DNA from: a virus
DNA: 28,492 bases
Virus record (IMG/VR): IMGVR_UViG_3300042569_002383
Location: 1 to 28,492 of that record
Strand: one strand, 5' to 3'
Under the pieces are notes generated by a model, which had not been told where the DNA came from, made no database searches, and saw nothing but the letters and a program-made list of their open reading frames with translations. The position numbers were made by a program, and so were the translations under genes. Shown here piece after piece: positions 7,489 through 24,917 of this stretch; position 1 is the first letter of the stretch; each line of letters starts with the position of its first letter.

Positions 7489-8094
7489 ATGTTTGATATA
7501 ATTAACTACAAAAAATTTAAACCTAAGGGTAAACAAAAGAAAAAATATCAAATAATACTAACCCACACCTCAAGGAACGTTACAGATTATTTAAACTCTA
7601 TTAAGTATAGATACTCGGGAAATTATCCTAAAATCCCAAACTATATTATAACTATGGATGGAAAAGTATTACAACTATTAGACAATACGGAACACACCCA
7701 ATACTTTGAAGAACCTAATATTAATAGGAATTCAATTATCATTTCATTAGAAAATTTAGGATGGTTACAAAAAGAACCGTTAAAAGACTATTACGTTAAC
7801 TGGATTGGTGATATTTATAAAGGTAATGTGTTTGAGAAAAAATGGAGAGACTATTTTTTTTGGCAACCTTATACCGATATCCAAGTACAGAATACAAGTA
7901 TATTGTGTAATATATTGTTTAAAGAAATGTCTATAAAACCAATGATTGTTGGGCACAACACAAAAATAAATGGTATTGAAAAATATGAAGGTGTGGTCAC
8001 TAAAAGTAATTTTGATTTGAATTTTACTGATGTTAGTCCATCTTTTAATTTTGAAAAATTTTTAAAAAAAATTAATAATGAAAAAAATTGTTAA
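7489..8094 (+). CDS. N-acetylmuramoyl-L-alanine amidase (Amidase_2/PGRP fold), candidate endolysin
   Basis: Zinc amidase that cleaves the bond between muramic acid and the stem peptide. Candidate zinc ligands are H26 (ILTHTSR), H156 (VGHNT) and D181 (FTDVSPSF), matching the H...H...D pattern of AmpD/T7-lysozyme-like enzymes. The ITMDGKVLQLLD strand and SIIISLENLGWL strand match the fold's core. Sequence is divergent and the C-terminal motif reads TDVSPSF rather than DPGP. There is no signal peptide, so export would need a holin or equivalent. Length (201 aa) fits a single catalytic domain. It is flanked by membrane proteins and followed by spanin-like genes, consistent with a lysis block. It could instead be a tail-associated wall hydrolase. 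Confidence 0.8.
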   Translation: MFDIINYKKFKPKGKQKKKYQIILTHTSRNVTDYLNSIKYRYSGNYPKIPNYIITMDGKVLQLLDNTEHTQYFEEPNINRNSIIISLENLGWLQKEPLKDYYVNWIGDIYKGNVFEKKWRDYFFWQPYTDIQVQNTSILCNILFKEMSIKPMIVGHNTKINGIEKYEGVVTKSNFDLNFTDVSPSFNFEKFLKKINNEKNC

Positions 8095-8386
8095 ATTAAA
8101 TGAATCTGAATTAATAAATTTTATTAAAAAATTTATTGCTGAAGAAGAATCTGAAGATGATTTTAATGATAATAATTTTACGGTTGAACCTAATGTTAAT
8201 ATGATACCAAGAGAAAAACAACTACAAGGTATGTTTGGTAAATATGAAGACCAAGTCCCAAATGATGTTTTAAGGTATTTAAGAAAAAATCCACAACTAA
8301 TTATGAACCGATTAGTTAAAATTTATGGGGATAAATTTTTAGAGTTTGCCGAAAAAGCTTACATTAAGAACTATAAAATAAAATAA
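8078..8386 (+). CDS. Small protein with N-terminal LNESEL tag, putative virion protein
   Basis: A 102-aa protein overlapping the amidase by 17 nt in another frame. Its first 24 residues (KIVKLNESELINFIKKFIAE) carry the short tag seen also at 10466, 16557 and 23553. The acidic stretch EEESEDDFNDNN follows, then a basic helical region with RYLRKNPQLIMNRLVKIYGDKF. No enzymatic family is recognised. The tag's FIAE sequence resembles the FIAEA of T4 internal-protein capsid-targeting sequences as I recall them, which would fit an internal head protein, but this is inference. Confidence 0.65.
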   Translation: MKKIVKLNESELINFIKKFIAEEESEDDFNDNNFTVEPNVNMIPREKQLQGMFGKYEDQVPNDVLRYLRKNPQLIMNRLVKIYGDKFLEFAEKAYIKNYKIK

Positions 8387-8408
8387 TATTTAAATTAATT
8401 AAAATACA

Positions 8409-9005
8409 ATGAATAATTCGCACGATGAAATTAAAAATTTATTAAAAGCCTCTAGAAAATTATTAAATAATGAGACTATTAATGAAGATATCCGTAGACA
8501 ATATGGGGTATTAACCGAACAAGGTGTTGACATGACTGACGATAATGTTACTAAAAAACTTAATATTACACAATCTGTTGAAGACGAAATAGATGATAAT
8601 ACAGAATCCTCAAAAGATAAAACACAAGGGTATAGAATATCTGGTGGTGTATTGGTTTTACATGGTAAAACCCAAACTGAATTAGAATTAACAACTGATG
8701 AAAAAACTGCATTCCAAGAAACTATGGATGAGTTTGTTACTGGGGTTTCTGATTTAGTTGATTTTAATAAGTTAAATGTATTCCCAAACAATGTTGAATG
8801 GTCGGGTAAAATAATTGATTTTGATATTGAGTTTTTTTTCACAATTGGCGAAGAAAATGGAGTTTATATTAATGGACAAATGATTAAGGTAGATGATAAA
8901 TTTTTAGATATGGTTAATAAATTAAAAACTTTTTATGAAAAGTTTAAATCAAAATGGGCTAAAATTATGGCATCAAGAAAAAAAACAAAAAAAACCGAAG
9001 AATAA
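8409..9005 (+). CDS. Unknown protein, possible virion component
   Basis: A 198-aa protein. The N-terminus (IKNLLKASRKLLNN, then VLTEQGVDM) is helical and acidic. The centre is a well-structured alpha/beta region (GGVLVLHGKTQTELEL, NVEWSGKIIDFDIEFFFTIG), and the C-terminus is strongly basic (SKWAKIMASRKKTKKTEE). I recognise no family. The low-complexity tagged N-terminus plus folded core resembles structural proteins of large phages. Its stop overlaps the next ATG by 1 nt (TAATG), implying coupling to the spanin-like gene. Confidence 0.6.
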   Translation: MNNSHDEIKNLLKASRKLLNNETINEDIRRQYGVLTEQGVDMTDDNVTKKLNITQSVEDEIDDNTESSKDKTQGYRISGGVLVLHGKTQTELELTTDEKTAFQETMDEFVTGVSDLVDFNKLNVFPNNVEWSGKIIDFDIEFFFTIGEENGVYINGQMIKVDDKFLDMVNKLKTFYEKFKSKWAKIMASRKKTKKTEE

Positions 9006-9346
9006 TGAAAAAATTTTTTAATGAACAAACAATTTTATTATTAATTATTGCCGTATTGGCAATTTGGAATATATTCAACACTAACAGTATTAAAACGGAT
9101 GTTGATTCATATAAAGATAAGATAAAGACAATTCAAGTACAAGTAGACTCTGTCCAAACGGTAAATAAAGAAATTGATGGAAAAATTGGTAAAGTTGACA
9201 AAAAAATTGTTAATGTTACTAAAGAGATTCATCATATTGATAATACAATAACAATAGTAAAAAATAACACAAATGAAAAAATTAATACTGCTGACAATTT
9301 TGGCGTTAACGAGCTTGAATTGTTTTTCGCAAACAGGTACCAATAA
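9005..9346 (+). CDS. Inner-membrane spanin-like protein (Rz-type topology)
   Basis: A 113-aa protein with one N-terminal membrane helix (about 8-25, TILLLIIAVLAIW) and a long periplasmic-type coiled coil of regular hydrophobic heptads (VDSVQTVNKEIDGKIGKVDKK). This is the architecture of i-spanins such as lambda Rz. The last 74 nt overlap, in a different frame, a gene with a signal peptide, which is also typical of Rz/Rz1 pairs. Spanins link inner and outer membranes and disrupt the outer membrane at lysis. There is no sequence family to recognise in spanins, so the call is by topology and position only. Confidence 0.5.
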   Translation: MKKFFNEQTILLLIIAVLAIWNIFNTNSIKTDVDSYKDKIKTIQVQVDSVQTVNKEIDGKIGKVDKKIVNVTKEIHHIDNTITIVKNNTNEKINTADNFGVNELELFFANRYQ

Positions 9347-9695
9347 AGAATCAGACACCACTAAAGTTGTTTTAACTAAAGAGGTTGCTAAACAAATTGT
9401 GAAAGACTTGATTAGGCTAGATGGATGTCAAGAAGAGTTAAAATTAACTCAAAATAAAATTATTAAACTTGAAGAAAGAGAAATTCAAAAAGATACAATC
9501 ATTTCTTTATTGAGAGATAAAGATAAGAATAACCAATTTGTTATTACTCAAAAAGATAAACAATTACAAATATCTGACGAGTTATCTAAAAGTTTAGGTA
9601 AAGAATTAAAAAGTTCTAAACGTACCACTTCCTTATATAAATTAGGAACTTTAGTTGGGATTATATCAACATCACTTTTATTAATTATTAAATAA
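9273..9695 (+). CDS. Signal-peptide plus C-terminal-TM protein, candidate spanin (o- or u-spanin)
   Basis: A 140-aa protein with a clear export signal (MKKLILLTILALTSL), a cysteine at 17 that could be lipidated (LNC) though the following FSQ also fits a signal-peptidase-I site common in flavobacteria, a coiled coil (about 55-115), and a terminal membrane helix (about 121-139, LGTLVGIISTSLLLII). A lipidated N-terminus with a C-terminal inner-membrane helix is the architecture of unimolecular spanins such as T1 gp11 (131 aa). Overlap with the Rz-like gene suggests a lysis pair instead. Either way an envelope-spanning lysis role is the best guess. Confidence 0.55.
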   Translation: MKKLILLTILALTSLNCFSQTGTNKESDTTKVVLTKEVAKQIVKDLIRLDGCQEELKLTQNKIIKLEEREIQKDTIISLLRDKDKNNQFVITQKDKQLQISDELSKSLGKELKSSKRTTSLYKLGTLVGIISTSLLLIIK

Positions 9696-9696
9696 C

Positions 9697-10428
9697 ATGA
9701 AAATTAAAGAAACATATTCTGGTGACCTAAAAACTAAAATGGCGGATGAAATGAGTAAAACAGGTGTTTTCTCACAAGGTTCAGACGCGGTCCAAACTGC
9801 AAACTCTTTTATTAGAAGTATACCTGAAAGTAAAAACAAAAAAGAAGAGATTATTCGTAAACCATTAAAGAAAGGTTTTACCAATAAGTTAGTTAGTACT
9901 AAAAAAATAACAAAACCTATAGGCAAATTAACTATGGGAATGCCAATAATGGGTGAAAAAAAAACAGAATCAACAGAATCAACAGGTTCAGGTTCTGCGG
10001 GAGGATTCTCAGAGCCATTATTCTCAACAACTAAAAAAGAAATGGAAGAAAATACGTTCAAAGCCCCAAAACTAACTATGTTTTCGGATGAAAAACCAAA
10101 ACTTAAAAAAGTTGAGGCGACAGAAGCTACAGGTTCATCATCTTCAGGTGCTTATGAAACCAATGCGGCTTGGGCAAAATCCACAAGTAAAAAAGATTGG
10201 AGAGGTAAATCTAAACCTCAAATACCTGGAGGTAAGTTCGTCCAAGTTAAAGAGAAGTGTAAAAAATTCCCATACTGTAATCAAGGAGATATTAAAGCTT
10301 TAAAAATATTTGAAAACAATACTGTTAAAAAAGTGATTACAAATATTAGTAAAAAACATAACATAAGTGAAAACGTGATTAAAACGATACTATCTTATGA
10401 GTATGAAAATAGTAAATCTAACAAATAA
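9697..10428 (+). CDS. Low-complexity protein with TGSxSxG repeats and C-terminal CX6C domain
   Basis: A 243-aa protein. The first 100 residues are lysine-rich and disordered. Two similar segments, STESTGSGSAGGFSEPLFS and EATGSSSSGAYETNAAWAKS, form an internal repeat that may act as a linker or binding element. The C-terminal 75 residues look folded: a basic stretch, the motif KCKKFPYCNQGD with two cysteines, then helices (VKKVITNISKKHNI, VIKTILSYEYE). I do not recognise a named family; the composition resembles virion-associated proteins of large phages. Starts 1 nt after the preceding stop. Confidence 0.65.
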   Translation: MKIKETYSGDLKTKMADEMSKTGVFSQGSDAVQTANSFIRSIPESKNKKEEIIRKPLKKGFTNKLVSTKKITKPIGKLTMGMPIMGEKKTESTESTGSGSAGGFSEPLFSTTKKEMEENTFKAPKLTMFSDEKPKLKKVEATEATGSSSSGAYETNAAWAKSTSKKDWRGKSKPQIPGGKFVQVKEKCKKFPYCNQGDIKALKIFENNTVKKVITNISKKHNISENVIKTILSYEYENSKSNK

Positions 10429-10442
10429 ACTGAAATATTTAG

Positions 10443-10460
10443 ATATTTATATTAAAAACA
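10443..10460 (+). promoter_or_regulatory. 18-nt element, copy 1 (possible phage late promoter or leader)
   Basis: ATATTTATATTAAAAACA lies 5 nt before the likely ATG at 10466. An identical 18-mer lies 6 nt before the ATG at 16557. Both genes encode proteins with the shared N-terminal tag. The element may be a promoter for the phage sigma factor or a conserved translation-initiation leader. Confidence 0.35.
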
Positions 10461-10465
10461 AGAAA

Positions 10466-12013
10466 ATGAAAAACACAAATAACAAATACCTTGATAATTT
10501 GGTCGCTAGATTGGTTAAAGAAACCTTAGAGGAAAGAACCGATGAGTTAACTACCAAGATAAATGAATTAGGTGGTATGGATGATGGTCATCCTAAATTT
10601 GGTAAGTTAAATTTAAATAAAATGTCAGATGAAGACTTAAATGACTTAATGAGTTCTAATGTTGAAGGTGATGACGACGACTATAAAGACCGAAGTGCGT
10701 ATAAACCATATTATGGTGAAGAAGATGGTGACGATGATTTCCAAGACGATGATTTCCAATACAATGGTGACATTGACAATGACTTTGATAATGATGAGGA
10801 ATTAGACGAATCATCAGAAGTATGTGAATGTGGTGGTGGTATGTATGAAGGTATTTGTGAAGAATGTGGTTATAGTAAAGTAGACGAAGGAATTGATGAT
10901 GAAGAAGACCTTAATGGTAAATTTGATTATGTTGAGGAAGAAGTTGATTTTGAAGATGAGGAAGAAATTGAAGACGAGACTCAATCAGAAGATAAAGAGG
11001 CTTGCAAGTACCATATGGATAATTTTGGTCCTGAGGACAAAAGAACACAACAGTTCTGTGGTTCAAATAAAATGGGTTTAAACAAATTTAAATTCTCAAT
11101 GAATGAAAGATTAAAAGGTCGACAAAGAAATATTGACAAAAACAAAAATGGTAAAATTGATTCTGAAGATTTTGAAATGTTAAGAAAAGGTGAGACTAAA
11201 GAAGGTAAAATGAATGAGAAATTAAAAGGTCGACAAAGAAATATTGACAAAAACAAAAATGGTAAAATTGATTCTGAAGATTTTGAAATGTTAAGAAAAG
11301 GTGAGACTAAAGAAGGTAAAAAATCTGTTAAACTTTCTGAGAACGAAATGATTGATTTAATAGAAAAACTTGTTAGAGAAGAAAATGCTGGCAAAAAACA
11401 AACTAATAATATTAAAAGTGCCGGAAAACCTAAAGGACTTACAAAATACGAACAAATTCACACTAAAGATGGTAAAGAAAATGATAACTATCTTAAGGAT
11501 GTTTCTAAAAAAATGAAAGATTATTTAAAAGACGGTTCTAAAGGTGATTTTGATATGAACCCTAAAATGTTTCCTAAAGGAAATGGTGAATTAGCAACAA
11601 TGAAAAAGAAAGCATATATCCCATCAACTGCGGTTGAGGACTACGTTGACAACTTTACGGCTGCTGCGTTAGAAAATTTAGATTACGATGGTATCCATGC
11701 AAATGAAGAATGGGTAACAGATAACATCGAAGGTTCTTCAAGAACAGGTAATAACCCTGAATGGGCTAACACGGGGGAATCTGATGTGAACAAAAAACGT
11801 AACAAAATCAGAAAAGATAATATGTTGGCTAAACTTAAGAGAAAGGCCTACAACAAATCACCACAACCAGTTGTTAACGATACTGCGGGTGAAGATAAAG
11901 GTAGTGTGATTATGGCTAAATTAGAGTCAACTGAACCAAAACAAGCGAAACAAATTAATGAAGAGTTTGATAGAATGAAATCTTTAATAGGTTACAATCA
12001 AAAAACTCAATAA
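10466..12013 (+). CDS. Multi-module acidic protein: zinc ribbon, duplicated EF-hand, internal tag
   Basis: A 515-aa protein from the ATG at 10466, preferred over the upstream in-frame ATG at 10397 because it avoids a 32-nt overlap and follows the shared 18-nt element. In order: an N-terminal tag-like helix (YLDNLVARLVKETLEE), a very acidic region, a CEC-x8-CEEC zinc-ribbon-like motif (about 124-138), another acidic stretch, two near-identical 37-residue units each with an EF-hand calcium loop (DKNKNGKIDSED), a second internal tag (KLSENEMIDLIEKLVREE, 289-306), a basic region, and a C-terminal INEEFDRMKSLIGYN. The internal tag right after the repeats suggests two fused tagged proteins. A virion or internal-head role is inferred; function unknown. 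Confidence 0.75.
   Translation: MKNTNNKYLDNLVARLVKETLEERTDELTTKINELGGMDDGHPKFGKLNLNKMSDEDLNDLMSSNVEGDDDDYKDRSAYKPYYGEEDGDDDFQDDDFQYNGDIDNDFDNDEELDESSEVCECGGGMYEGICEECGYSKVDEGIDDEEDLNGKFDYVEEEVDFEDEEEIEDETQSEDKEACKYHMDNFGPEDKRTQQFCGSNKMGLNKFKFSMNERLKGRQRNIDKNKNGKIDSEDFEMLRKGETKEGKMNEKLKGRQRNIDKNKNGKIDSEDFEMLRKGETKEGKKSVKLSENEMIDLIEKLVREENAGKKQTNNIKSAGKPKGLTKYEQIHTKDGKENDNYLKDVSKKMKDYLKDGSKGDFDMNPKMFPKGNGELATMKKKAYIPSTAVEDYVDNFTAAALENLDYDGIHANEEWVTDNIEGSSRTGNNPEWANTGESDVNKKRNKIRKDNMLAKLKRKAYNKSPQPVVNDTAGEDKGSVIMAKLESTEPKQAKQINEEFDRMKSLIGYNQKTQ
11099..11320 (+). repeat. 111-bp tandem duplication of an EF-hand unit
   Basis: Two head-to-tail copies, 11099-11209 and 11210-11320, of 37 codons each. 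By eye they differ at only two bases near the start (GAAAGA versus GAGAAA, giving ER versus EK). Each encodes a calcium-binding loop DKNKNGKIDSED. The near-identity at synonymous sites indicates a recent duplication. Confidence 0.95.
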
Positions 12014-12041
12014 TTTACAAACACATAATATAACTTATAAT

Positions 12042-12075
12042 TTCTCCATAGACTAACTCTATGGAGAATTTTTTT
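12042..12075 (+). terminator. Strong rho-independent terminator overlapping the next start codon
   Basis: TTCTCCATAGA (12042-12052) pairs perfectly with TCTATGGAGAA (12058-12068) across a 5-nt loop, followed by seven T. The ATG of the next gene (12061-12063) lies inside the right arm, and the T-run encodes its phenylalanines. The hairpin can both stop upstream transcription and bury the downstream start. Confidence 0.93.
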
Positions 12076-12528
12076 AATTACATATCAAATCCGTTAACTC
12101 CTGAGGATGTTGACATCTGGTTTAGGGTAAATAATATCATACCTGAAAAAATAGAGTTATTTTCCGACTTCTCACATTCCCTGAACATATTAATTGTTGA
12201 AACTTATTTAGGTGAGAATAACACCGCAAATGAAACCAAAATTGTTATGTCGTTAGACGATAATCACAAACATTTTGAATGGTGTTGGAATAAAATAATT
12301 GATAACTTTACTAAAGAGAATATTAGATTCCAACCAATTGGTGACCACTACGAATACTTCCAATCATTTTTTGTTGATATCTTTTATAATCAAAGTGACG
12401 TTAAAATTAGACATTCTATTGATAGTTACCTCAACGACCTTTTTGACACCAAAAAATCTTTCACTAAATCTGATTTAGATATGATATTAACCATATATAA
12501 AGTGTTAGATAAAAATCTTAAAATTTAA
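12061..12528 (+). CDS. Conserved-looking phage protein of unknown function, start in terminator hairpin
   Basis: A 155-aa soluble acidic protein with many aromatic residues (SNPLTPEDVDIWFRVNNI, HFEWCWNKIIDNFTKENI, YFQSFFVDIFY) and a C-terminal helix (FTKSDLDMILTIYKVLDKN). The pattern is familiar from large-phage orphans but I cannot name a family. The ATG is in the right arm of a strong terminator, so a full hairpin would hide its start. The next in-frame ATG (codon 62, MSLDDN) would remove the conserved-looking N-terminus, so the first ATG is preferred. Expression may depend on a transcript starting within the hairpin or on readthrough with melting. Confidence 0.72.
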   Translation: MENFFNYISNPLTPEDVDIWFRVNNIIPEKIELFSDFSHSLNILIVETYLGENNTANETKIVMSLDDNHKHFEWCWNKIIDNFTKENIRFQPIGDHYEYFQSFFVDIFYNQSDVKIRHSIDSYLNDLFDTKKSFTKSDLDMILTIYKVLDKNLKI

Positions 12529-12538
12529 AAAATACCTT

Positions 12539-12554
12539 TATAGTGTTTACTATA
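12539..12554 (+). other. Small hairpin in an intergenic leader
   Basis: TATAGT and ACTATA pair across a GTTT loop in the 82-nt gap between genes. It is only 6 bp and AT-rich and lacks a T-run, so it is unlikely to be a good terminator. Otherwise the gap shows only A/T-rich leader sequence and no recognised promoter. Confidence 0.25.
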
Positions 12555-12610
12555 GACCAAAAAAAATTATTTTATAATAAAACAATAAATAAACTAATTG
12601 AATTTTAAAA

Positions 12611-12787
12611 ATGGAAACATTAGAACAAATTAAAACACTAACTGAAGAATTGTCACAAGAAGTGGCCAAATTCTTTAAAGGTAATAAAAGTGCGGGTACT
12701 AGAGCTAGAAAAAACGCTCATGACTTGAAAAATTTATTACAAACACTAAGAACTGAAATACTTGAAGAAAGAAAAAAACCTCAATAA
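12611..12787 (+). CDS. Hc1-like histone H1 family small DNA-binding protein
   Basis: A 58-aa protein. The sequence METLEQIKTLTEELSQ, VAKFFKGNKSAGTRARK and DLKNLLQTLRTEILEER matches the pattern of the histone H1-like Hc1 family common in Bacteroidetes, where the core reads KFF/Y-KGNKtAGTRaRKhLQELK. These are small basic nucleoid proteins that bind DNA nonspecifically. A phage copy could compact or protect phage DNA or modulate transcription. Its stop overlaps the next ATG by 1 nt (TAATG), so the membrane protein downstream is coupled to it. Family match is from motif recognition. Confidence 0.85.
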   Translation: METLEQIKTLTEELSQEVAKFFKGNKSAGTRARKNAHDLKNLLQTLRTEILEERKKPQ

Positions 12788-12975
12788 TGCATAATTTAAA
12801 TGCAATATATTTGTTTTTATTTATCTTTTCGGTTCTGACCGTAATTAGAACGGTCGCTAGGTTTATAAGTACCCTATTACAGAACCCACCAAGTCAACTA
12901 AAATTGACTAGGTGGGAACTTATACACTTAGGATTATCACTATCCTATGTCATAACCTATTTTATTAAAAATTAA
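12787..12975 (+). CDS. Small two-helix membrane protein
   Basis: A 62-aa protein with two hydrophobic helices (about 5-31 and 46-60) joined by a short loop NPPSQLKLTRWEL. Not a recognised family. A two-helix hairpin of this size fits a class II holin, but it is far from the amidase and no other lysis evidence is near. The loop is encoded by a 13-bp inverted repeat (see 12885). Coupled by TAATG to the histone-like gene. Confidence 0.7.
   Translation: MHNLNAIYLFLFIFSVLTVIRTVARFISTLLQNPPSQLKLTRWELIHLGLSLSYVITYFIKN
12885..12916 (+). other. Intragenic inverted repeat (RNA hairpin)
   Basis: CCCACCAAGTCAA (12885-12897) pairs with TTGACTAGGTGGG (12904-12916) over a 6-nt loop, with a single A-A mismatch in 13 pairs. 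It lies within the coding region for the cytosolic or periplasmic loop of the two-helix membrane protein. The GC-rich base is notable in such AT-rich DNA. No T-run follows. Confidence 0.8.
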
Positions 12976-12977
12976 TT

Positions 12978-13427
12978 ATGAGTTTATATAAAGAGTTTTC
13001 AACATTACTTCCATACATACAGTCTGTAAGGAAACTTAAAAACTATTTAAGTTTTGACGTTAGTTTTCCTAAAACATGGAAATTACCTAAAAAATATATT
13101 GAAGAAGATAAAATTTTAGAACAAGAAAGTACTATTATTGATAATAGATTTTTTTCTTTTGTATCTGAGATAACTGAAGAAGGTGTTGAAAACACATCTA
13201 AAAATATTCAAAATATTATTAAATATAATTTAGAAAGAGAAGAGAAAGAAAAATTATTCCAAAATAAAGTAGATGAATTAAAGCATATTTTTGAAAAACA
13301 AAATCTTAAAAACTTAAAAAGTTTACAATTTGAAATAAAAAATAATAAATTAGAACTTGAATACGATGAAGAAGAGCTCGAAGGTGCTAGAGTGGTTCCA
13401 GAACGAATTAACAAAGGACAAGATTGA
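12978..13427 (+). CDS. Unknown protein with charged helical C-terminus
   Basis: A 149-aa protein. The N-terminus (LPYIQSVRKLKNYLSFDVSF, PKTWKLPKKYI) looks folded, and from residue 75 on it is a long charged helix (NIIKYNLEREEKEKLFQNKV) ending in an acidic stretch. I recognise no family. Its last 62 nt overlap the next gene in another frame, an unusually long overlap. It starts 2 nt after the preceding stop. Confidence 0.65.
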   Translation: MSLYKEFSTLLPYIQSVRKLKNYLSFDVSFPKTWKLPKKYIEEDKILEQESTIIDNRFFSFVSEITEEGVENTSKNIQNIIKYNLEREEKEKLFQNKVDELKHIFEKQNLKNLKSLQFEIKNNKLELEYDEEELEGARVVPERINKGQD

Positions 13428-13560
13428 TTTAGATAAAGGAAAGTCTGATTTAATCAACCAAATTAAAAAATTAAAAAAGGAAGAAATACTTCCTAAAATA
13501 CCTCAAACCCCTGAAAAAATATCACTATGGAAGAGAATCAAAAAAGTATTGATGGGATAA
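13366..13560 (+). CDS. Small basic helical protein, unknown function
   Basis: A 64-aa protein rich in lysine (MKKSSKVLEWFQNELTKDKI ... KRIKKVLMG). An in-frame TTG at 13357 would add three residues, but ATG at 13366 is preferred. It overlaps both neighbours in different frames: 62 nt with the gene before and 34 nt with the gene after. The aromatic WFQNEL start and the SLWKRIKKVLMG end look conserved rather than random, and the strong helix-forming composition supports translation. Function unknown. Confidence 0.6.
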   Translation: MKKSSKVLEWFQNELTKDKIDLDKGKSDLINQIKKLKKEEILPKIPQTPEKISLWKRIKKVLMG

Positions 13561-13841
13561 TTGAAAAATTAGCGTTAGTTGCTGATGCGATTGACAGTTT
13601 ATTTCCTGATGGAAAATCCGCAATCGCCTTTGAACTTAAATCAGAAGATTTTAAAAGAGTTCAAAATAACTTTCGACAAGTTGACCATACACATAAACAA
13701 TTCAAAATAGTTATTTCAAATACCGAATTTATGTTTTTGTTGGATGGGTTGTTGATTGACGAAACAGATAGGTTTTCGGAAACCCTTTCTCAGATAAAAT
13801 TAAATAAAGATACTTCCTCTGAGCAGTTGAATAATCTTTAA
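13527..13841 (+). CDS. Unknown protein, convergently overlapping a leftward gene
   Basis: A 104-aa protein with a helical N-terminus (IIEKLALVADAIDSLFPDGK), then beta-rich sequence (AIAFELKSEDFKRV, FKIVISNTEFMFLLDG). No family recognised. Starts inside the previous gene. Its last 113 nt overlap, on the opposite strand, the 3' end of the leftward gene ending at 13729, so this stretch codes on both strands. The end of the plus product (TSSEQLNNL) is low complexity and may tolerate the overlap. Confidence 0.6.
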   Translation: MEENQKSIDGIIEKLALVADAIDSLFPDGKSAIAFELKSEDFKRVQNNFRQVDHTHKQFKIVISNTEFMFLLDGLLIDETDRFSETLSQIKLNKDTSSEQLNNL

Positions 13842-14376: not shown

Positions 14377-14425
14377 TGAAAAATGATAATATTAACTAAA
14401 TTAGTTTCAAAACAAATATAAGTAA

Positions 14426-16550: not shown

Positions 16551-16556
16551 TTTAAA

Positions 16557-17933
16557 ATGAGAATAACAACATTACTTTCGAATTTAATAGTAGAACAATC
16601 TAGATTTCAGGTTTTATTTGATAAATTAGTTAAACCTGCCACTAAATCTAAAAATATTGAGACAGGAAAAAAACCAAAAGGTATTATGGATTTTGAAACC
16701 CTAAAGGCGATTATCCTTGCTGACCCAACAACTAGAGTACCTGAAGGTAAAGATATAGACACTTTATCCATGGAAGATATGGAAAGAGTTAAAGTTGGTA
16801 AATACTCACAATGGTTACTTAAAAACTATGTTAGTCCTCAGATTGAAACTGATGATGAAGTTGATTTTAAAAGTCCTGCATATCAAAAGTCTTTAGTTGA
16901 AGGCCGAAGATTATTCATGGAGGATTTATATAAAACTACCGCTGATTTAGTTAAGTTTGAAAAGGCTAAACCCTATTTACCCCAAGAACAAAGAGACATC
17001 AATAAATTTACGGTAACATCATTATTTGATACTTTAAAAGATTTTCAAATTCCTGAAAAGAAAAGGGGTGAACTTGAAAAGAAAGAAGCTAAAAAATCAA
17101 GAGAAGGTTTTAACCACGCTGGTGGTAAAATCGTTTATGAAGGTCCAAATTGGACAATGATTAAAATTGAAGACCAAGGTAGTGTTGGTAAAGACGCGGC
17201 GGTTTACTATGGTGGATTCCATGAGTACGACCAAGGAGAATCAAGATGGTGTACGTCATCACCTGGATTAACTTATTTTAATGGATACATTAAAGATGGC
17301 CCATTATATGTCGTATTTCCAAATGATGACAAAGGTTTAGTTGGTAAAAAAACAGGTTTACCACAAGAAAGATTCCAATTCCATTTCCCTTCAAATCAGT
17401 TTATGGATAGACATGACAGACAAATTAATTTAGTTGAATATTTGAACGGACCTATGTCTGAACTCAAGGACTTCTTCAAACCTGAATTTGCGAAAGGATT
17501 AGTAACTAAAGGTGGTAATAAGGTTGAAATTAACTATCCTGATAGTTCTGCGGGTAAATTTGTTGCTTTATATGGATTTGATGAATTATTTGATAGTTTA
17601 CCTGAAAATATAGAACACTTATTAATTAATAACAAATCAAAAGAAGAGATTGCGTTAACAGTTCCTGAGTCTTTAGGTAGATTCAAAGACTTACAAGCAT
17701 TGTTATTACAAAATATCGCTAAAACATTACCTGAGTCAATCGGTCAATTACAGAATTTAAATTTCTTGGCGTTACCGTCAAATAAATCGTTACAAAGTTT
17801 ACCTGAATCAATTGCTGATATACCAGGTTTAGCGTTTATTAACTTAAAAGATAGTAACCCTGGTGTTAAAATACCTGAAAGATTAAAAGAAAAACTATCT
17901 GATGAAGGTAGTGGGTTTTATTATGTAAACTAA
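16557..17933 (+). CDS. WCTS-motif plus leucine-rich repeat protein with N-terminal tag
   Basis: A 458-aa protein. Residues 1-24 (MRITTLLSNLIVEQ) are a variant of the shared tag, with IVE at a possible protease site. Residues about 40-190 are helical. The middle (about 200-310) has the motif pattern RWCTSSPGLTYFNGYIKDGP and LYVVFPN, seen in orphan proteins of large phages where the WCT motif follows a strand-rich start. The C-terminus (about 350-450) has leucine-rich repeats (LPENIEHLLINN, VPESLGRFKDLQALLLQN, LPESIGQLQNLNFLALPSN, LPESIADIPGLAFINL). LRRs mediate protein binding. The whole architecture is unnamed to me. A tail or host-interaction role is possible. Confidence 0.75.
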   Translation: MRITTLLSNLIVEQSRFQVLFDKLVKPATKSKNIETGKKPKGIMDFETLKAIILADPTTRVPEGKDIDTLSMEDMERVKVGKYSQWLLKNYVSPQIETDDEVDFKSPAYQKSLVEGRRLFMEDLYKTTADLVKFEKAKPYLPQEQRDINKFTVTSLFDTLKDFQIPEKKRGELEKKEAKKSREGFNHAGGKIVYEGPNWTMIKIEDQGSVGKDAAVYYGGFHEYDQGESRWCTSSPGLTYFNGYIKDGPLYVVFPNDDKGLVGKKTGLPQERFQFHFPSNQFMDRHDRQINLVEYLNGPMSELKDFFKPEFAKGLVTKGGNKVEINYPDSSAGKFVALYGFDELFDSLPENIEHLLINNKSKEEIALTVPESLGRFKDLQALLLQNIAKTLPESIGQLQNLNFLALPSNKSLQSLPESIADIPGLAFINLKDSNPGVKIPERLKEKLSDEGSGFYYVN

Positions 17934-18253: not shown

Positions 18254-18254
18254 A

Positions 18255-18286: not shown

Positions 18287-18312
18287 TATTATAAATTTAA
18301 AAACAACAAAAT

Positions 18313-19068
18313 ATGTCATACACTTCCGAGTCAATTAAATCAACCGCACCAGCAGTATTTGCAACGTTCCCATCTCAAAAGATGTCGGATAAGTATGTTT
18401 TCGTACCAACATTTGAAATTCTTGAGAATTTTGAACGTGAGGGATGGCAATTATCATCTGTTAAACAAACAGGTCGTGGTGAACATGGTGTTCACGAATT
18501 AAGATTTCGTAATGGGGAATTACCTAAAGTTGGTGATTCAATCGTAGAGGCAATTATTCGTAACTCGCATAACGGATTGGCAACATTCTCAGTTAGTGCT
18601 GGCCTTCATCGATTAGTATGTAGTAACGGTTTAACGGTACCTACGTCACTTTCTGAGTCATTCAACCTTAGACATCAAAGATTTGATTTAAATGAGGTAA
18701 AACAACTTACAGAGAGTTTTGCGGGACGGTTACCTGTAATCCAAAGGTCAGTAGACCGAATGATGAATAAAGAACTGACTTTACCTGAGAAAATTCAATT
18801 CATTAAGAAAGCTATCAACACTCGTTGGAAGACTGGTACTGTACCGCCAACTCTTGATGTTATGGAGATTATGTACCCTAAACGTGAGGAAGATAACAAG
18901 AATGACTTATGGACGGTATTCAATGTGGTACAAGAGAAGTTTATTAAAGGTGGTCTTGAGTATCAAACACAAAGAGGTAGAAAAACATCCTTAAGAGGTT
19001 TAAGTAGTATTATGGCGGTTAACCAAGTTAATACCAAACTTTGGGAACTTGCAGAAGAGATGTGTTAA
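18313..19068 (+). CDS. DUF932-family phage/plasmid protein
   Basis: A 251-aa protein of the DUF932 type. Family-like stretches are GVHELRFRNGELPKVGDS, VEAIIRNSHNGLATFSVSAG, then LHRLVCSNGLTVP and a helical C-terminal half. DUF932 proteins occur widely in phages and plasmids. Some are annotated as plasmid-transfer or recombination associated, but their biochemical role is unknown. Codon usage in this gene has more C-ending codons than its neighbours, which may reflect high expression, consistent with the consensus promoter before it. The hairpin after it could end its transcript. Confidence 0.85.
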   Translation: MSYTSESIKSTAPAVFATFPSQKMSDKYVFVPTFEILENFEREGWQLSSVKQTGRGEHGVHELRFRNGELPKVGDSIVEAIIRNSHNGLATFSVSAGLHRLVCSNGLTVPTSLSESFNLRHQRFDLNEVKQLTESFAGRLPVIQRSVDRMMNKELTLPEKIQFIKKAINTRWKTGTVPPTLDVMEIMYPKREEDNKNDLWTVFNVVQEKFIKGGLEYQTQRGRKTSLRGLSSIMAVNQVNTKLWELAEEMC

Positions 19069-19072
19069 TTTA

Positions 19073-19095
19073 AATGGGGGTAATAATCCCCCATT
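19073..19095 (+). terminator. Hairpin after the DUF932 gene, probable terminator
   Basis: AATGGGGG (19073-19080) pairs with CCCCCATT (19088-19095) across TAATAAT. The stem is strong for this AT-rich genome. The following sequence is only moderately T-rich (CATTTAATTT), so termination may be partial. Confidence 0.65.
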
Positions 19096-19110
19096 CATTT
19101 AATTTAAATT

Positions 19111-20877
19111 ATGAAAGAAATTTATTCATATACTTTGACGGATTACACCACGATAAAATTCGAGGGTACTAATGATTTATGTTTTGATAAACATGAGACT
19201 GTGAATCCATTGGGGGATGACGAACCATTAAAGAAAAAAGTTACACTATCAACCGATGATTGGGATGGAGGGTATTATGGTAAATTTAAACAAGAATCTG
19301 TTAGTGAAGACAAAGAGGATTTTATTAAAAACTATGGTAATCCTTTATGTACTGTAAGGTTGTACAGAAGAACCATTGTTGTTACTGAGAAGGATAATAA
19401 GATTGCTTTAAAAATATTTGAATATAACCGAGTTAGGATTAAGGCGACCAAATATTTTAGGTTATCAACAAGAGTTGAATTTCTAACATTTAATCATACA
19501 ACAAATTCATTATATACGGGTTATATTCTAGACTATCATAAAAAAAGAAAGTGTCGTAAAAAAATTAGAAGGTGTATTTTTGCTGAAGACCCAATTAATC
19601 GTTTTCGTTCTTTAATAAATTCTTTATTTGGTGACTACAATAAAAAAGTTATTGAACCTAAAATTTGGGGGAGGTCTGATTTAATTAATCATATTATTAA
19701 TTTGTTTGTTAACTCAATCCCTGGCACTGAAAAATACCCTGAATTATCACCTGAGTTAAAATTATATAAACGATACTTAGATTATTCGGGTATTAAATTC
19801 TCAAACAATTGGAGTTCGTTTATATTATATAATCCACAACCTAAAAAGGTTGAGTTGGTTAAGAATGGTATGAAATATATTGATACTATTATTAGTAACG
19901 CAGGTCTTAATGGAGATAAACTTAAACGTGTATTACATAAAGTAAAACAATGTGATTTTACAACATTATCTTATACTTATGAGGTTTTTGGTAAGAATTT
20001 TATAATGTCACAAAATGACGATATCATTAAAAAAATGATTGAAAACTCCGTGGTTAACGGTAGTGGCGTACAGGTTAATTTTACTAACAAGGAAAACCAA
20101 AACTCGTTCGATATCTTCAAGTTAGTATTAGATGGACAAATAAATTATAATACCTTCCATGACCATTTAAACTTTCATAATTTCTTAAATAATTTAGAAA
20201 CAATTAAGTGGAAGTCTTCTAATTACGAAGACTTTATGGATGAACACTTTGAGTGGTCAGAAAAACAAGCGTTCTATACGTCAGGTGACTTTAAAAGATA
20301 TTATGGTGAGAAGTTTAAGTCAGAAGTTGAAAGACCGTTATTGGGTGTAAATGTTCATTTTCCTGTTTTATTGACCACTAGTAAAGAATATAATAAAGAA
20401 TCTTTCATACAGTCTAATTGTGTTAAAACTTATATTAAAAAACCACACTCAGTTATTGTATCTTTAAGAAGAGATAATGTTGATTCTGAATATAGAGTGA
20501 CTATTGAATACTTTATTAAGTATAGTGGTGGTAAAGTAGTTGAATTGAAAAGAGTACAATCATTAGGTAAATTTAATTATAACTTTGGGGAAGATTGGTC
20601 AATTATTTTAGAAAACCTTGATAGACGAATAGATAACTTGGTTAAAAAAGAATTGTTTGTTTTACCTGAGATAGAATCTATATTTGGTCACAAAACAATC
20701 AAAAGTAAATTAGTTGAAATAGGCCCAAACCAATTTTATGATGTTCATAACAGAGGTAGTGAAACTAAATTAGATTGGGATAATGATATGATATATAATG
20801 TTGCTTTAAAACAAAGTATATTTGATGATTTTGAACCTAATAATTTACTAAATATGATTAATGAATTAGATTTTTAA
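19111..20877 (+). CDS. PcfJ-like large protein
   Basis: A 588-aa protein. The N-terminal 300 residues are lysine- and aromatic-rich without a recognised domain. The region around residues 420-510 has SFIQSNCVKTYIKKPHSVIV, SLRR, then VTIEYFI, RVQSLGKFN and W-x-x-x-LENLDRRI, resembling the PcfJ-like domain (named from a plasmid transfer gene), in which a cysteine-containing (H/N)CV..Y motif is followed by SLR and TLE/TIE strands. PcfJ-like proteins occur in plasmids and phages, with function unclear. The match is from pattern memory and moderate. It is the first gene after the hairpin at 19073 and is followed after 1 nt by a small orphan. Confidence 0.6.
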   Translation: MKEIYSYTLTDYTTIKFEGTNDLCFDKHETVNPLGDDEPLKKKVTLSTDDWDGGYYGKFKQESVSEDKEDFIKNYGNPLCTVRLYRRTIVVTEKDNKIALKIFEYNRVRIKATKYFRLSTRVEFLTFNHTTNSLYTGYILDYHKKRKCRKKIRRCIFAEDPINRFRSLINSLFGDYNKKVIEPKIWGRSDLINHIINLFVNSIPGTEKYPELSPELKLYKRYLDYSGIKFSNNWSSFILYNPQPKKVELVKNGMKYIDTIISNAGLNGDKLKRVLHKVKQCDFTTLSYTYEVFGKNFIMSQNDDIIKKMIENSVVNGSGVQVNFTNKENQNSFDIFKLVLDGQINYNTFHDHLNFHNFLNNLETIKWKSSNYEDFMDEHFEWSEKQAFYTSGDFKRYYGEKFKSEVERPLLGVNVHFPVLLTTSKEYNKESFIQSNCVKTYIKKPHSVIVSLRRDNVDSEYRVTIEYFIKYSGGKVVELKRVQSLGKFNYNFGEDWSIILENLDRRIDNLVKKELFVLPEIESIFGHKTIKSKLVEIGPNQFYDVHNRGSETKLDWDNDMIYNVALKQSIFDDFEPNNLLNMINELDF

Positions 20878-20878
20878 G

Positions 20879-21190
20879 ATGAAAGAAATTCCTTTATTTT
20901 GTGTTGAAATGTTTACCAAAAAGTATGGTGTTCATCCTAGTTTTGTTGAGGTGATGTTACCATATTCAGAATCCGCAATTAAAACGGTAATTAAGAAATC
21001 GTATTTACTATGGTACAATGACTTTGTTAATGAGAAAGGTGAAGTGTTAACTAAAGACACGTTATATGAATACGATTCAACAGGAGTTCTTTTGTATTTT
21101 AAAAACGGTACTCATATATTTATATTAACAAAACCCGACAAGAAAAGTATTGTTGAGTTTTTTATACATAACTTAAAAAAAATAAAATAA
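20879..21190 (+). CDS. Small protein of unknown function
   Basis: A 103-aa protein with an alpha/beta look (LFCVEMFTKKYGVHP, ESAIKTVIKKSYLLWYNDF, VLLYFKNGTHIFIL) and a basic C-terminus. Not a recognised family. It begins 1 nt after the PcfJ-like gene and ends 3 nt before thioredoxin, so the three genes are probably one transcript. Confidence 0.6.
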   Translation: MKEIPLFCVEMFTKKYGVHPSFVEVMLPYSESAIKTVIKKSYLLWYNDFVNEKGEVLTKDTLYEYDSTGVLLYFKNGTHIFILTKPDKKSIVEFFIHNLKKIK

Positions 21191-21193
21191 ACT

Positions 21194-21517
21194 ATGGAAA
21201 TTACACAAGAATTATTACAGGAAAAAATTAACAACGGAGAAAAATTAGTTGTGGATTTTTGGGCACCTTGGTGTGGCCCTTGTAAAATGATGAAACCTGT
21301 TTTTGAAACCGTTGCGGAAAAATATCAAAAAGAAAATTCTGAAGTACAATTATATACATTGAATGTTGAAGAGAATAAAGAATTTTCGTCCAAGTTAGGA
21401 ATTAGAGCAATCCCTACAATAAAATCTTTTGCCAATGGTAAAGAACAATTTTCAAGACCAGGATTACAAATGGAGTCTCAAATAAATGATATTGCAAAAA
21501 ATTTATTAAATGGATAA
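21194..21517 (+). CDS. Thioredoxin
   Basis: A 107-aa thioredoxin with the active site WC27-G-P-C30 (WAPWCGPCKMMKP), the conserved Asp21 in VVDFWAP, and the cis-proline loop (IRAIPTIKSF). Full length, no signal peptide, so a cytosolic disulfide reductase. In phages thioredoxins typically serve ribonucleotide reductase or, in T7, DNA polymerase processivity using the host protein. Neither partner is in this window. Its stop overlaps the glutaredoxin start by 8 nt. Confidence 0.95.
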   Translation: MEITQELLQEKINNGEKLVVDFWAPWCGPCKMMKPVFETVAEKYQKENSEVQLYTLNVEENKEFSSKLGIRAIPTIKSFANGKEQFSRPGLQMESQINDIAKNLLNG

Positions 21518-21794
21518 AGTATTAATTCTTTTCACAATGGAGGGTTGTCCTTTTTGTGATATAATGAAAGAACAATTAAATGAGATTGATATCGATTATG
21601 TGGTTAGGGATATTAACGAATATGAGGAAGAATATGACATGTTTGTTGAGATTACCGAAAATGACTTTGTACCGGCATTTATGATTATTGAATCACCTGA
21701 TGAAAATCCTAAGACCATGTTATTTGCTCCTGATAGAGATTTCAATGAAATTGAAGACGGGGTTAAAATAATTAAAGAACATTTTAATTTATAA
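21510..21794 (+). CDS. Glutaredoxin-like protein
   Basis: A 94-aa thioredoxin-fold protein with the redox site C13-P-F-C16 (FTMEGCPFCDIMKEQL) and the cis-proline region (DFVPAFMII). CPFC is typical of glutaredoxins (CPYC class), but the segment after the cis-proline is divergent and acidic. Overlaps the thioredoxin gene by 8 nt, so the two redox proteins are co-translated. Together they could supply electrons to a phage ribonucleotide reductase elsewhere in the genome. Confidence 0.88.
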   Translation: MDKVLILFTMEGCPFCDIMKEQLNEIDIDYVVRDINEYEEEYDMFVEITENDFVPAFMIIESPDENPKTMLFAPDRDFNEIEDGVKIIKEHFNL

Positions 21795-21817
21795 AAATCC
21801 TTCACTGGATTTTTTTA
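21793..21817 (+). terminator. Rho-independent terminator after glutaredoxin
   Basis: AAAAATCC (21793-21800) pairs with GGATTTTT (21807-21814) across TTCACT, continuing into more T. The left arm begins within the glutaredoxin stop codon. Confidence 0.85.
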
Positions 21818-21829
21818 TGTATTTACGAT

Positions 21830-22354
21830 ATGAATTTGACTTTTAAAAAAAATGGTGTCACTCATCATCCTGCAAGAACTTGGGAATTAACTGACGGTAA
21901 TTACATTAATATTTATCAGGGTAGTCGTGGACACAATCCAGAGTTAGATTTTATTGTTAAATATAAAACTGAAAAATCTAGATTAAGAGCACCATCACAT
22001 ACTCATTGGATTGTTGATTTACTTTTAAAATGTGAACATAATCCAAATGGAGTTAATTCTTATGTAACTGAATGGTTAGAGATATACGATGTTGCCTCAG
22101 CATTCAACTCTATTGAGGAACGTAATAATTATTGTTTAATGTATAACGATTATTTTACCGAAAAATATGATTTATTACAAAATTTAGGTGTTTTTTCAGT
22201 TGAATTTTTATCCGCAATGATTGAATTGTTTATTAAGTGTGAAAAACAAACGCCCAATGCCTTCATGTTTAAAACCCTTTTAGTTTTAATTAAAGATTAT
22301 TGTGAGGGTAAAAAAGACTTCTACCAAGTAGTGTCCTATTCTAAACGAGTTTAA
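21830..22354 (+). CDS. Unknown protein with SHTHW motif
   Basis: A 174-aa protein. The N-terminal part is beta-rich (LTFKKNGVTHHPARTWEL), followed by the striking RAPSHTHWIVDLLLKCEHN and then helices. The H-x-H-W cluster could bind metal, but no known enzyme family is recognised. It follows the glutaredoxin terminator and ends convergently with a leftward gene, overlapping it by 4 nt. Confidence 0.7.
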   Translation: MNLTFKKNGVTHHPARTWELTDGNYINIYQGSRGHNPELDFIVKYKTEKSRLRAPSHTHWIVDLLLKCEHNPNGVNSYVTEWLEIYDVASAFNSIEERNNYCLMYNDYFTEKYDLLQNLGVFSVEFLSAMIELFIKCEKQTPNAFMFKTLLVLIKDYCEGKKDFYQVVSYSKRV

Positions 22355-23172
22355 AAAATAATTAAATCTTTTGTTCTATCATGGATTAACCATGGTTTAT
22401 CACTAATAGGATTATTTAAATCCTCAGAAACATCGTAGTTTAATATGGTAGTTTGAAATTTATTTAAATTAAAATCAAATACATCCAATACCATAGATTT
22501 AATTGTTTCTTCCTGATAAATCGAATCTGAAATTATTCTTATATTAAAATCGTAATCTTGGTTTTTAAGCGTTGATATTTTGAATAATATCTTATTTGAA
22601 TTAATTACTTTGAATAACTGATTACAAATATATTCTGAATAATAAAAATATAATCTACCCATACTTAAACTATGTCCGTATGGGAATTCTGATGAAATAT
22701 TAAGAGGTGAATAAGAGAAGTAACTTAATTTTGTTGTATCTTCATGACCAAAATCTAACTCAACCATGAACCCTTTATGGTCCGATACTGAATTATATTT
22801 AACAGTATTATCTGATTGAACAAAGTCAATCATTTTTTGGTTAAATGACGGTCTTTCAGTATTATAGAAGGTGAACCAATATTCTTCCTTCTTAACTAAT
22901 TCATTATTGTATAAGATTAGGTCGACAACATTTATATTATCATAACCGTACTTGTTCAACAAGGATTCGTTTTCTTTATAAAACCTTTCTTTAACGTCAG
23001 ACATGTCTAATATCTTAGAAGAGTTTGTCATACCGTTTATTACAAAGAATTTACCACAATCAGTTATCTCAACTACCGTATCGTATTTTGTATCTTTGTT
23101 TATCTCTTTTAAAACAAAATCGGCAAAACTGTTTACGATTCCTTTATTTGAATATTTATTGATGTAGTTCAT
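22351..23172 (-). CDS. Unknown alpha/beta protein on the minus strand
   Basis: A 273-aa protein with regular alternation of strands and helices (VVEITDCGKFFVINGMTNSS, NINVVDLILYNNELVKKEE, GFMVELDFGHEDTT, FPYGHSLSMGRLYFYYSEYI). It looks like a folded enzyme but I cannot name it. An early impression of an S-adenosylmethionine synthetase N-terminus was not supported, as the HPDK and GAGDQG motifs are absent. The gene is leftward, next to another leftward gene separated by a terminator, so it has its own start signal. No clear promoter is visible in the gap before its start. Confidence 0.75.
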   Translation of the reverse strand: MNYINKYSNKGIVNSFADFVLKEINKDTKYDTVVEITDCGKFFVINGMTNSSKILDMSDVKERFYKENESLLNKYGYDNINVVDLILYNNELVKKEEYWFTFYNTERPSFNQKMIDFVQSDNTVKYNSVSDHKGFMVELDFGHEDTTKLSYFSYSPLNISSEFPYGHSLSMGRLYFYYSEYICNQLFKVINSNKILFKISTLKNQDYDFNIRIISDSIYQEETIKSMVLDVFDFNLNKFQTTILNYDVSEDLNNPISDKPWLIHDRTKDLIIF

Positions 23173-23218
23173 TTTTAATAATTATACCAATTAATAGTAA
23201 AAATAATTTAGATTATAA

Positions 23219-23249
23219 ATAGAAAAAGAGGTGTTTATCACCCCTTTTT
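23219..23249 (-). terminator. Leftward rho-independent terminator
   Basis: On the minus strand AAAAAGGGGTG pairs with CACCTCTTTTT across a 5-nt loop with one G-U wobble; on the plus strand the same position would be an A-C mismatch. This asymmetry shows it works for the leftward gene ending at 23272. The rest of the 23173-23271 gap holds no clear promoter. Confidence 0.85.
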
Positions 23250-23271
23250 AATAACAGAAATAAGAAATATA

Positions 23272-23445
23272 TTACTTCTTATTGTAGTACTTCTCAACAA
23301 CTTTCTTAATTGACTCTTGAATAGAAGAGTTATTAGTAGTTTGCCCTTGAACCTGAGCCAAAGTTTGATTTTGACTACTTTGTTGAGGGGTCGAAACTGT
23401 TTGAGGTTGAGTTTGATTTCCTTTATTTTTGCAACCGCAGCCCAT
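23272..23445 (-). CDS. Small Q-rich protein with MGCGC start
   Basis: A 57-aa protein beginning MGCGCKNKGN, followed by a glutamine, serine and threonine-rich linker (about 11-40), and ending in a conserved-looking helix ESIKKVVEKYYNKK. The paired cysteines near the start suggest metal binding or a structural disulfide. The overall shape (CxC, Q-rich linker, short basic helix) resembles small phage orphans of unknown function. It is followed by a clear leftward terminator. Divergent from the 23553 gene. Confidence 0.7.
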   Translation of the reverse strand: MGCGCKNKGNQTQPQTVSTPQQSSQNQTLAQVQGQTTNNSSIQESIKKVVEKYYNKK

Positions 23446-23473
23446 GGTAATAATATTTAGATTTGTTTATTCT

Positions 23474-23485
23474 TATTTATAAATA
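23474..23485. promoter_or_regulatory. Palindromic TATAAATA pair between divergent genes
   Basis: The sequence TATTTATAAATA gives TATAAATA on the plus strand (23478-23485) and on the minus strand (plus 23474-23481). It sits in the 107-nt gap between the leftward Q-rich gene and the rightward tagged gene. T4 late-type octamers are expected by chance in such AT-rich DNA, so only the divergent placement makes it worth noting. Nothing else is seen in this gap. Confidence 0.2.
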
Positions 23486-23552
23486 TCACCAATTAATATT
23501 TAATGTCAAGAAAATCAAGTTAAATTTATTTTATTTTCAAGTATTTATAGAC

Positions 23553-24917
23553 ATGGCAAATAAAGTGAGACTTACTGAACAGGGGTTACAACAACTAATT
23601 AAAAGAATTGTTGAGGAAGTTGATGGTGAATATTATAAAATATCACCAGAAGAATATTTAGAACTATTAAAGTTATCGGGGTATCACGGACAAGGAATTA
23701 GCAGATTACCAAAGTTTCAAGGAAAACCTTTGTGGATAACCGGTGATTTAAAAATAAGTAACACATCAACAGATTCTTTAGGGAATGTTGGTTATGTTGA
23801 TGGTAGTTTAGATATATCAAACACTAAGATAAGTGACATATCAAAAATTAATGTTAAAAACCATGTATGGGATGGCGGGACTCCAGTTCAACGAAAAAGA
23901 TTGGCGGCCGAATTACAAAAAAAGAAAAATGAAATGGATGTTCTTCGCGATAACGATGAATGGAACATTAATAATACAGATGATGTAGGTTTAAAGGCTA
24001 ATGCCTTATTTAAATATTTAGTTTCTGTCGGTTTAGATGTATTAGACGAAGAGGGTCAAGAAAAATTATCTAACTTAAAAATTGAGTTAGATAAACTACA
24101 AGACAAATATAACAACGTTGAAGAACCTGAATTAGTTTCTGGTTTATATGATGAAATTAGTGATTTAGAGGGTGATATTGAAGGTTTAGAGAATGAAAAT
24201 AATGATGTTTATATCATTTCCCCAAATCGTTATAGTACCTATGGGTTACAAAGTTTTGAAGTCTTAAGCCCTGAGTTTACAGACATGGTTTATAGTGTTG
24301 GGACCTCTGATGAGATGGATGACGCGGCGTTAATATACGCTAAAAATTATATTGATGAGGTTGGACTTGATGGGTTTAATCGGGGTTTTATTGATGAATA
24401 CATTGATATTAATTATCTTAGAAGTTACTTTAGTGATTGGTTTGAAGATGATATACGACAAAATTCTGAAGTTTATTTTAGTGAAGATGATTTTAAATTA
24501 ACTCAAAAACAAGAAGAAGAAAAAACTAAATTAGAACAAGAGATTGAAGAATATGAAGAAAGACAAAGTAATTTAGATTTTGACACTGAAGCTCCTGAGG
24601 AATTTCATAGAATGTATGACCAAATACAAGACCACATCGATACCTTACAAGAAGAATTAGATAATATAACACCTGATGATGAACCTACCGAGGAAATGAT
24701 AGAAGAACTTCTTGAAAGTAGGTTAAATGATGTTGAAGACAGTCCTATATATTATATTAAAGAATATGGTGCTGACATTAGAAATTTTATTGACGAAGAC
24801 GCTTTAGCTAAAGGACTTGTTGATAGCGACGGATGGGGTGTTATGAACGGGTATGATGGAGATTATGAGGAAGTAACCGTAAATGGGCAAGATTTTTATA
24901 TTATGAGAGTCGAGTAA
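23553..24917 (+). CDS. Tagged acidic protein with short beta-repeat region, putative virion protein
   Basis: A 454-aa protein from ATG 23553 (an upstream in-frame ATG at 23463 would add 30 residues of noise). It starts with the clearest copy of the shared tag, KVRLTEQGLQQLIKRIVEE. Residues about 50-95 have strand-turn repeats (LWITGDLKISNTSTDSLGN, LDISNTKISDISKINV) like short LRR or beta-solenoid units. The rest is highly acidic with coiled-coil stretches, ending NGQDFYIMRVE. No family recognised. The tag and acidic composition suggest a head or tail associated protein. Confidence 0.72.
   Translation: MANKVRLTEQGLQQLIKRIVEEVDGEYYKISPEEYLELLKLSGYHGQGISRLPKFQGKPLWITGDLKISNTSTDSLGNVGYVDGSLDISNTKISDISKINVKNHVWDGGTPVQRKRLAAELQKKKNEMDVLRDNDEWNINNTDDVGLKANALFKYLVSVGLDVLDEEGQEKLSNLKIELDKLQDKYNNVEEPELVSGLYDEISDLEGDIEGLENENNDVYIISPNRYSTYGLQSFEVLSPEFTDMVYSVGTSDEMDDAALIYAKNYIDEVGLDGFNRGFIDEYIDINYLRSYFSDWFEDDIRQNSEVYFSEDDFKLTQKQEEEKTKLEQEIEEYEERQSNLDFDTEAPEEFHRMYDQIQDHIDTLQEELDNITPDDEPTEEMIEELLESRLNDVEDSPIYYIKEYGADIRNFIDEDALAKGLVDSDGWGVMNGYDGDYEEVTVNGQDFYIMRVE

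Follow-up and report, generated by a model that had tools for sequence, protein, structure and literature searches.

Many otherwise unrelated proteins of a group of very large, uncultured, T4-related phages begin with the same 22-residue leader, which we interpret with high confidence as a capsid-targeting propeptide of the T4 kind, greatly expanded; its cleavage and the packaging and delivery of the attached proteins are inferred, there being no virion proteomics. What can be established at the level of sequence is the leader itself and the exact position of its end, leader exchange between homologous cargos, the co-encoding of a protease with the capsid, and the fit of the predicted cut to the rule for T4 gp21, which is reported to cut after L/I-X-E (PMC9026906). 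The proposal from which this work started (an earlier note on the same DNA) was that a short shared helix, fitting the (L/I)-x-E cleavage pattern of T4, may send unrelated proteins into the prohead or another compartment. The predicted cut agrees with that published rule (PMC9026906), and the prohead-targeting interpretation finds further support in the enrichment of the motif and in the S77 protease of relatives.

The window, by which is meant the whole stretch of DNA analysed, is a 28.5 kb virus record from an AT-rich genome; over its full length and with 100% identity, it matches a 177 kb contig (G001, locus L085) at positions 104855-133346. This contig belongs to a T4-related group of jumbo phages; no phage sequence matched the window by megablast. 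Relatives were fetched by way of three proteins (an SbcC-like protein and the proteins encoded at 10466 and 16557), and seven more large contigs, of 215-318 kb, were taken whole, making, together with the window's own contig, a set of eight contigs (~2 Mb, 2510 called proteins). Judged by gene content alone, the group resembles the moraphages, jumbo phages of aquatic Bacteroidota, whose published gene content includes a major capsid protein, portal, prohead core protease, glutamine synthetase and DnaJ/DnaK; a shared leader was not found in the passages on gene content (PMC12619734).

Five genes of the window carry leaders (all leader, cargo and repeat coordinates below are on the + strand). 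The earlier note had singled out four, at 8078, 10466, 16557 and 23553, quoting the peptides MKKIVKLNESELINFIKKFIAEE, MKNTNNKYLDNLVARLVKETLEE, MRITTLLSNLIVEQ and MANKVRLTEQGLQQLIKRIVEEV, respectively; the peptides do lie at these genes and all four genes do carry leaders, but a fifth, at 8409 (window 8409-9005), was missed. The leaders were also taken to be variants of one helix. That holds for 8078, 23553 and an internal copy in the 10466 protein, which constitute a single class, the 22-residue LTESDL type, but not for 16557 and the N-terminus of 10466, whose leaders are shorter and have in common with the LTESDL type mainly the hydrophobic-x-E end. At 8078, the 22-residue leader MKKIVKLNESELINFIKKFIAE (8078..8143), defined by class consensus and register and kept in homologues, has its predicted cut after E22 (FIAE↓EE; arrows mark cut sites, predicted in the phages described here), and the 80-aa cargo that follows (8144..8386) has no Pfam or PHROG match. 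The 8409 leader MNNSHDEIKNLLKASRKLLNNETINEDIRRQYGVLTE (8409..8519), placed by homologue comparison, would be cut at LTE↓Q; its length and sequence vary in the family, and hydrophobic-x-E, mostly followed by Q, is kept in nearly all of ~60 homologues. The 16557 leader has only 13 residues, MRITTLLSNLIVE (16557..16595; predicted cut IVE↓Q), and among 49 homologues, the most distant of them ~36% identical, residues L7 and E13 are invariant, with T4 and I11 nearly so. In the 23553 protein, the leader MANKVRLTEQGLQQLIKRIVE (23553..23615) is predicted to be cut at IVE↓E, possibly one residue later; all 26 distinct leaders of this family have hydrophobic-x-E placed 4-12 residues (mostly 7-8) upstream of a common core, and the cargo (23616..24917) is acidic, without a Pfam match. 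The description of the attached proteins as unrelated and acidic or of low complexity stands as to their being unrelated; the 16557 cargo (16596..17933), however, is a folded protein, with a helical and alpha/beta region, a WCTS motif and a C-terminal leucine-rich repeat. A Foldseek match of this protein covers the leucine-rich repeat only, is silent on function, and was set aside as a functional clue.

Elsewhere in the window, two different genes (1189-1818 and 6585-7457) have a common repetitive coiled-coil-like stretch (VEVIKEVPVEVIKEVEKIVEV), and an overlapping gene pair at 9005-9695, near the Amidase_2 gene at 7489, comprises a gene whose product has a membrane helix at its N-terminus and another whose product starts like a signal peptide; these could be the two spanins of a lysis cassette.

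In the 10466 protein, an N-terminal leader is accompanied by an acidic part carrying EF-hand-like repeats, by an internal leader copy and by a C-terminus that is conserved; this arrangement suggests a core or internal protein that, by inference, is cut more than once. The N-terminal leader MKNTNNKYLDNLVARLVKE (10466..10522) has a predicted cut at VKE↓T, and N-termini of its family in the eight contigs read ..LVSKILKE↓TLEE, IINE↓T and VLTE↓T. The second, internal copy that had been claimed for this protein is indeed there, once, as the LTES-type sequence KSVKLSENEMIDLIEKLVRE↓E (11321..11380, with the peptide originally quoted, KLSENEMIDLIEKLVREE, at 11330), and each of the eight family members examined has such a copy, at residues ~128-311. 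In one of these eight internal copies D replaces E, which counts against a propeptide. The conserved C-terminal element QINEEFDRMKSLIGYNQKTQ (11951..12010) was found in the eight contigs examined. A tandem 113-base repeat (11098..11321) specifies two EF-hand-like loops (DKNKNGKIDSEDF); its units are 98% identical, and the duplication doubles the loop.

How general the leader is was assessed with an N-terminal profile built from the tag. At a score above 15, the profile has 119 matches in the eight contigs, belonging to 56 families (clustered on protein bodies minus the first 28 residues), compared with 0.05 in shuffled N-termini; at internal positions it has only 22. Since the profile was iterated, selection on the first 12 residues only makes for a cleaner test. 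A degenerate DNA pattern for just these residues picks out at least 120 stretches in IMG/VR; run over 84,980 genomes of bacteria and archaea, it has one match only, on a 3.2 kb contig. ORFs starting MKKxxxLTExDL amount to 145 distinct proteins among the matches listed, and in these proteins residues 13-22, on which there was no selection, are nevertheless highly conserved as far as residue 22: information stands at 2-4 bits within the leader, falls to 1.2 bits at residue 23 (Q, N or S) and is ~0.2-0.4 bits beyond. Hydrophobic-x-E falls exactly at residues 20-22 in 127 of the 145 among the matches listed, the expectation being 3.2; the end fits the gp21 site (L/I)-x-E, save that V stands at P3 in a minority. 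The exceptions are mostly of a four-residue-longer form (MKKIIRLTESDLHRIVKESVNRILKE↓) with the site at 24-26. Separate contigs (L321, L324, L325, L344, L351, L375, L382, L392, L405, L407 and L412) carry this 26-residue form (LTESDLHRIVKESVNRILKE); two contigs with it exceed 400 kb and carry S77. An AT-rich genome, in which K, I and E are common, might be thought to generate look-alike lysine- and glutamate-rich helices by chance. The genome-wide N-terminal enrichment is too strong for that: the profile and register counts refute chance likeness, to which we assign next to no probability.

The leader is amphipathic and basic (MKKIIRLTESDLTRIVKRVI). Its consensus (MKKIIRLTESDLTRIVKRVIKE), read by eye without a predictor, is charged throughout and has neither the AxA nor the cysteine of a secretion or lipoprotein signal. 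No match to the 23-residue leader was found among cultured phages by tblastn, a query too short for this to be evidence of absence, and no earlier description of the leader was found in the open-access literature.

The bodies to which the leader is attached are diverse. Clustering sorts the 194 tagged ORFs into 154 groups that have no detectable similarity to one another, and in a 150-member alignment the leader alone is conserved. Of the families that Pfam recognises within these 150 sequences, 12 in all and each with a single member, several are cell-wall enzymes (phage lysozyme, Tae4 amidase, SLT transglycosylase, PG-binding); matches of cargos to defence systems by PADLOC were marginal, and these assignments were rejected. 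Cell-wall enzymes, to which a few cargos belong, would be out of the ordinary among T4 internal proteins, and their presence weighs against the propeptide interpretation. T7 gp16 is a cell-wall enzyme packed in the head; the leader-bearing proteins at L408:11942-12700 and L220:7932-8825, in which lysozyme-like and SLT transglycosylase domains occur, are possibly packed in the head as well. Tagged genes often stand in tandem, as they might if the likeness of their starts stemmed from recent duplication or recombination of DNA segments, with no function at the protein level. However, where copies in the same genome agree in a residue, their codons for it differ 37-50% of the time, which is near the expectation from genome codon usage, so that the copies are old and kept at the protein level. 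The cargos, too, are unrelated, and we give this explanation almost no credence.

The large contigs that include a head module have a T4-type portal (PF07230), an S77 protease (PF03420) and gp23 (PF07068), in T4 order. S77 is also present in 26 of 34 further contigs that were found, among the matches listed, through the tag pattern only; the eight that are without it are probably fragments, because the gp23 gene is missing from them too, and every gp23-bearing contig tested has the protease. Protease family S78 was found in none of 20 contigs tested. The relatives' protease can be aligned with T4 gp21, and H85 and S140, which we take to be the catalytic residues of gp21, are conserved in it. 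A gp21-like protease is thus found in relatives, beside a T4-type portal and gp23, but not in the window's own, incomplete, 177 kb contig, which has no S77 protease, gp23 or portal; the protease of the window's virus is consequently inferred from relatives, and its absence from the contig has to be counted against the propeptide interpretation. In the relatives' major capsid protein, FLINE↓A stands at the place of FLTE↓A in T4 gp23 (matched by eye; a PDB search with this N-terminus alone returned only noise).

Genes of the head module begin with leaders that are shorter but alike in form (MELNKIIKKVLRE↓A, MKTDLVSRVVKRVLRE↓T), and the N-termini of T4 gp24 (MAKINELLRE↓S) and gp22 (MLKEQLIAE↓A) are of like form. 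These N-termini, in head modules and in T4 itself, together with a site that obeys the gp21 rule, are difficult to reconcile with a small domain for regulation or dimerisation, or a degron, that has no part in assembly and was spread by gene fusion, a very improbable explanation in our judgement even if it would suit cargos that are mostly small, of unknown function and located in variable gene clusters. The flavobacterial phage immuto does not carry the leader class despite its related gp23 and S77, an observation that speaks against a propeptide. Immuto (L426-L429) has a different recurring N-terminus, NFxLxxFLxENKLT, in two genes adjoining terminase; possibly it is another leader class.

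The strongest argument for the predicted cut site comes from leader swaps: the same cargo is found with unrelated leaders, each ending in hydrophobic-x-E directly upstream of the common body. The cargo RYMFFSNLEQ follows MKKVIKLSESKLTELVKRIMSE↓Q, MKTDLVSRVVKRVLRE↓T, MKDNKLQNLIKKVLEE↓Q and MKNLDNLIKQVLKE↓Q, and in a fifth member MEKKLINEDIQNIKYLFGYKPGRVISE↓Q is located farther upstream; KPEMGGKYCFG follows MTKIIRLTESDLTNIVRRVIEE↓QMN and MAKRFIITEEEKGDILSKYGLVSE↓QMN; AVGVPxxI follows MKIKIKESQYTKLNE↓A, MKKNLIITENQLEIIVNNLLLNE↓A and MELNKIIKKVLRE↓A; and NQxxVDxxLDKIS follows, in one genome, both MKKIIRLTESDLTRIVNRVINE↓NQ and MKYLITESQYEILIE↓NQ. An amphipathic, basic leader, some of whose cargos are cell-wall enzymes, could also be a helix for localisation or docking (whether to a phage replication compartment, to the inner membrane or to a host complex) that the head protease does not cut. 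That would leave unexplained the sharp hydrophobic-x-E end, the survival of the site where the remainder of the leader has been exchanged, and the strict company of the S77 protease, and we consider it improbable.

Two further leader classes emerge from the same contigs: an ITESQ type (114 N-termini, 54 families; 1.6 in shuffled sequence) and an MNLQENIxRIxxMM type (34 N-termini, 23 families; 3.3 shuffled). Both are real and heterogeneous, a clear site not being present in all members; the lack of an obvious hydrophobic-x-E end in part of the ITESQ class is evidence against a propeptide. A candidate 'short L..II.KVL.E' class proved too loose (62 as against 23 shuffled) and was left out of the counts. 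Over all proteins, taking one per family, hydrophobic-x-E has a peak at residues 16-25 (~1.7-2.2 fold) that is so mild as to make the pattern alone unusable as a predictor. At G001:163552-168165 (L194:3552-8165), five consecutive genes start with MNLQENIxRI, the last of them after a few residues, and one gene of the run specifies a P-loop protein after MNLQENIQRIKQMMGLLTE.

The mechanism that we propose is the following. The amphipathic leader would dock its protein into the assembling prohead core; the gp21-type (S77) protease would then cut after the glutamate of hydrophobic-x-E at the leader's end; the freed cargo would be retained in the head with the DNA and probably be delivered into the host at infection. 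Over the classes counted, there are roughly 10-40 leader-bearing genes per contig, hydrolases and a P-loop protein among them, and we lean, if only slightly, toward the broader notion that in these phages a large and exchangeable repertoire of effectors is loaded into the head through several parallel leader classes that have only the protease site in common. If that is true, the head would be a general protein-delivery vessel with a cargo that the sequence reveals. The internal proteins of T4 include anti-defence effectors such as IPI; few proteins of this type are known because their bodies have no sequence in common. A leader of fixed length with a cut site would make virion-packed, probably injected, proteins predictable from genome sequence alone. 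In these uncultured phages, over 150 mutually unrelated clusters of cargos become candidate anti-defence and take-over proteins, and the leader itself becomes a candidate address tag with which proteins could be loaded into very large heads.

Among known systems, the phiKZ/SPN3US head proteins offer one comparison: there, as is inferred here, a phage protease removes N-terminal propeptides of ejected proteins after glutamate. Those propeptides are mostly 111-254 residues long and have no single common sequence (PMC10052503), and the SPN3US prohead protease is gp245, whereas capsid and protease here are of T4 type. The closer parallel is with the capsid-targeting sequence (CTS) of T4 IPI, IPII, IPIII and Alt, which gp21 cuts, likewise a short N-terminal leader with a hydrophobic-x-E end on unrelated bodies; in both systems an S77 protease is co-encoded, small cargos are hypervariable, and core and shell proteins bear the same kind of site. 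The likeness is one of form only, the leader being too short for a claim of homology. The T4 CTS propeptides, on non-conserved bodies, are 10-19 residues long (PMC9026906, PMC3012670), as against 22 residues here and 26 in the other form, and T4 has a handful of cargos where these phages have tens per genome. Unlike T4, these phages also have several interchangeable leader classes, an internal leader copy in one conserved protein, and cell-wall enzymes and a P-loop protein among their leader-bearing genes.
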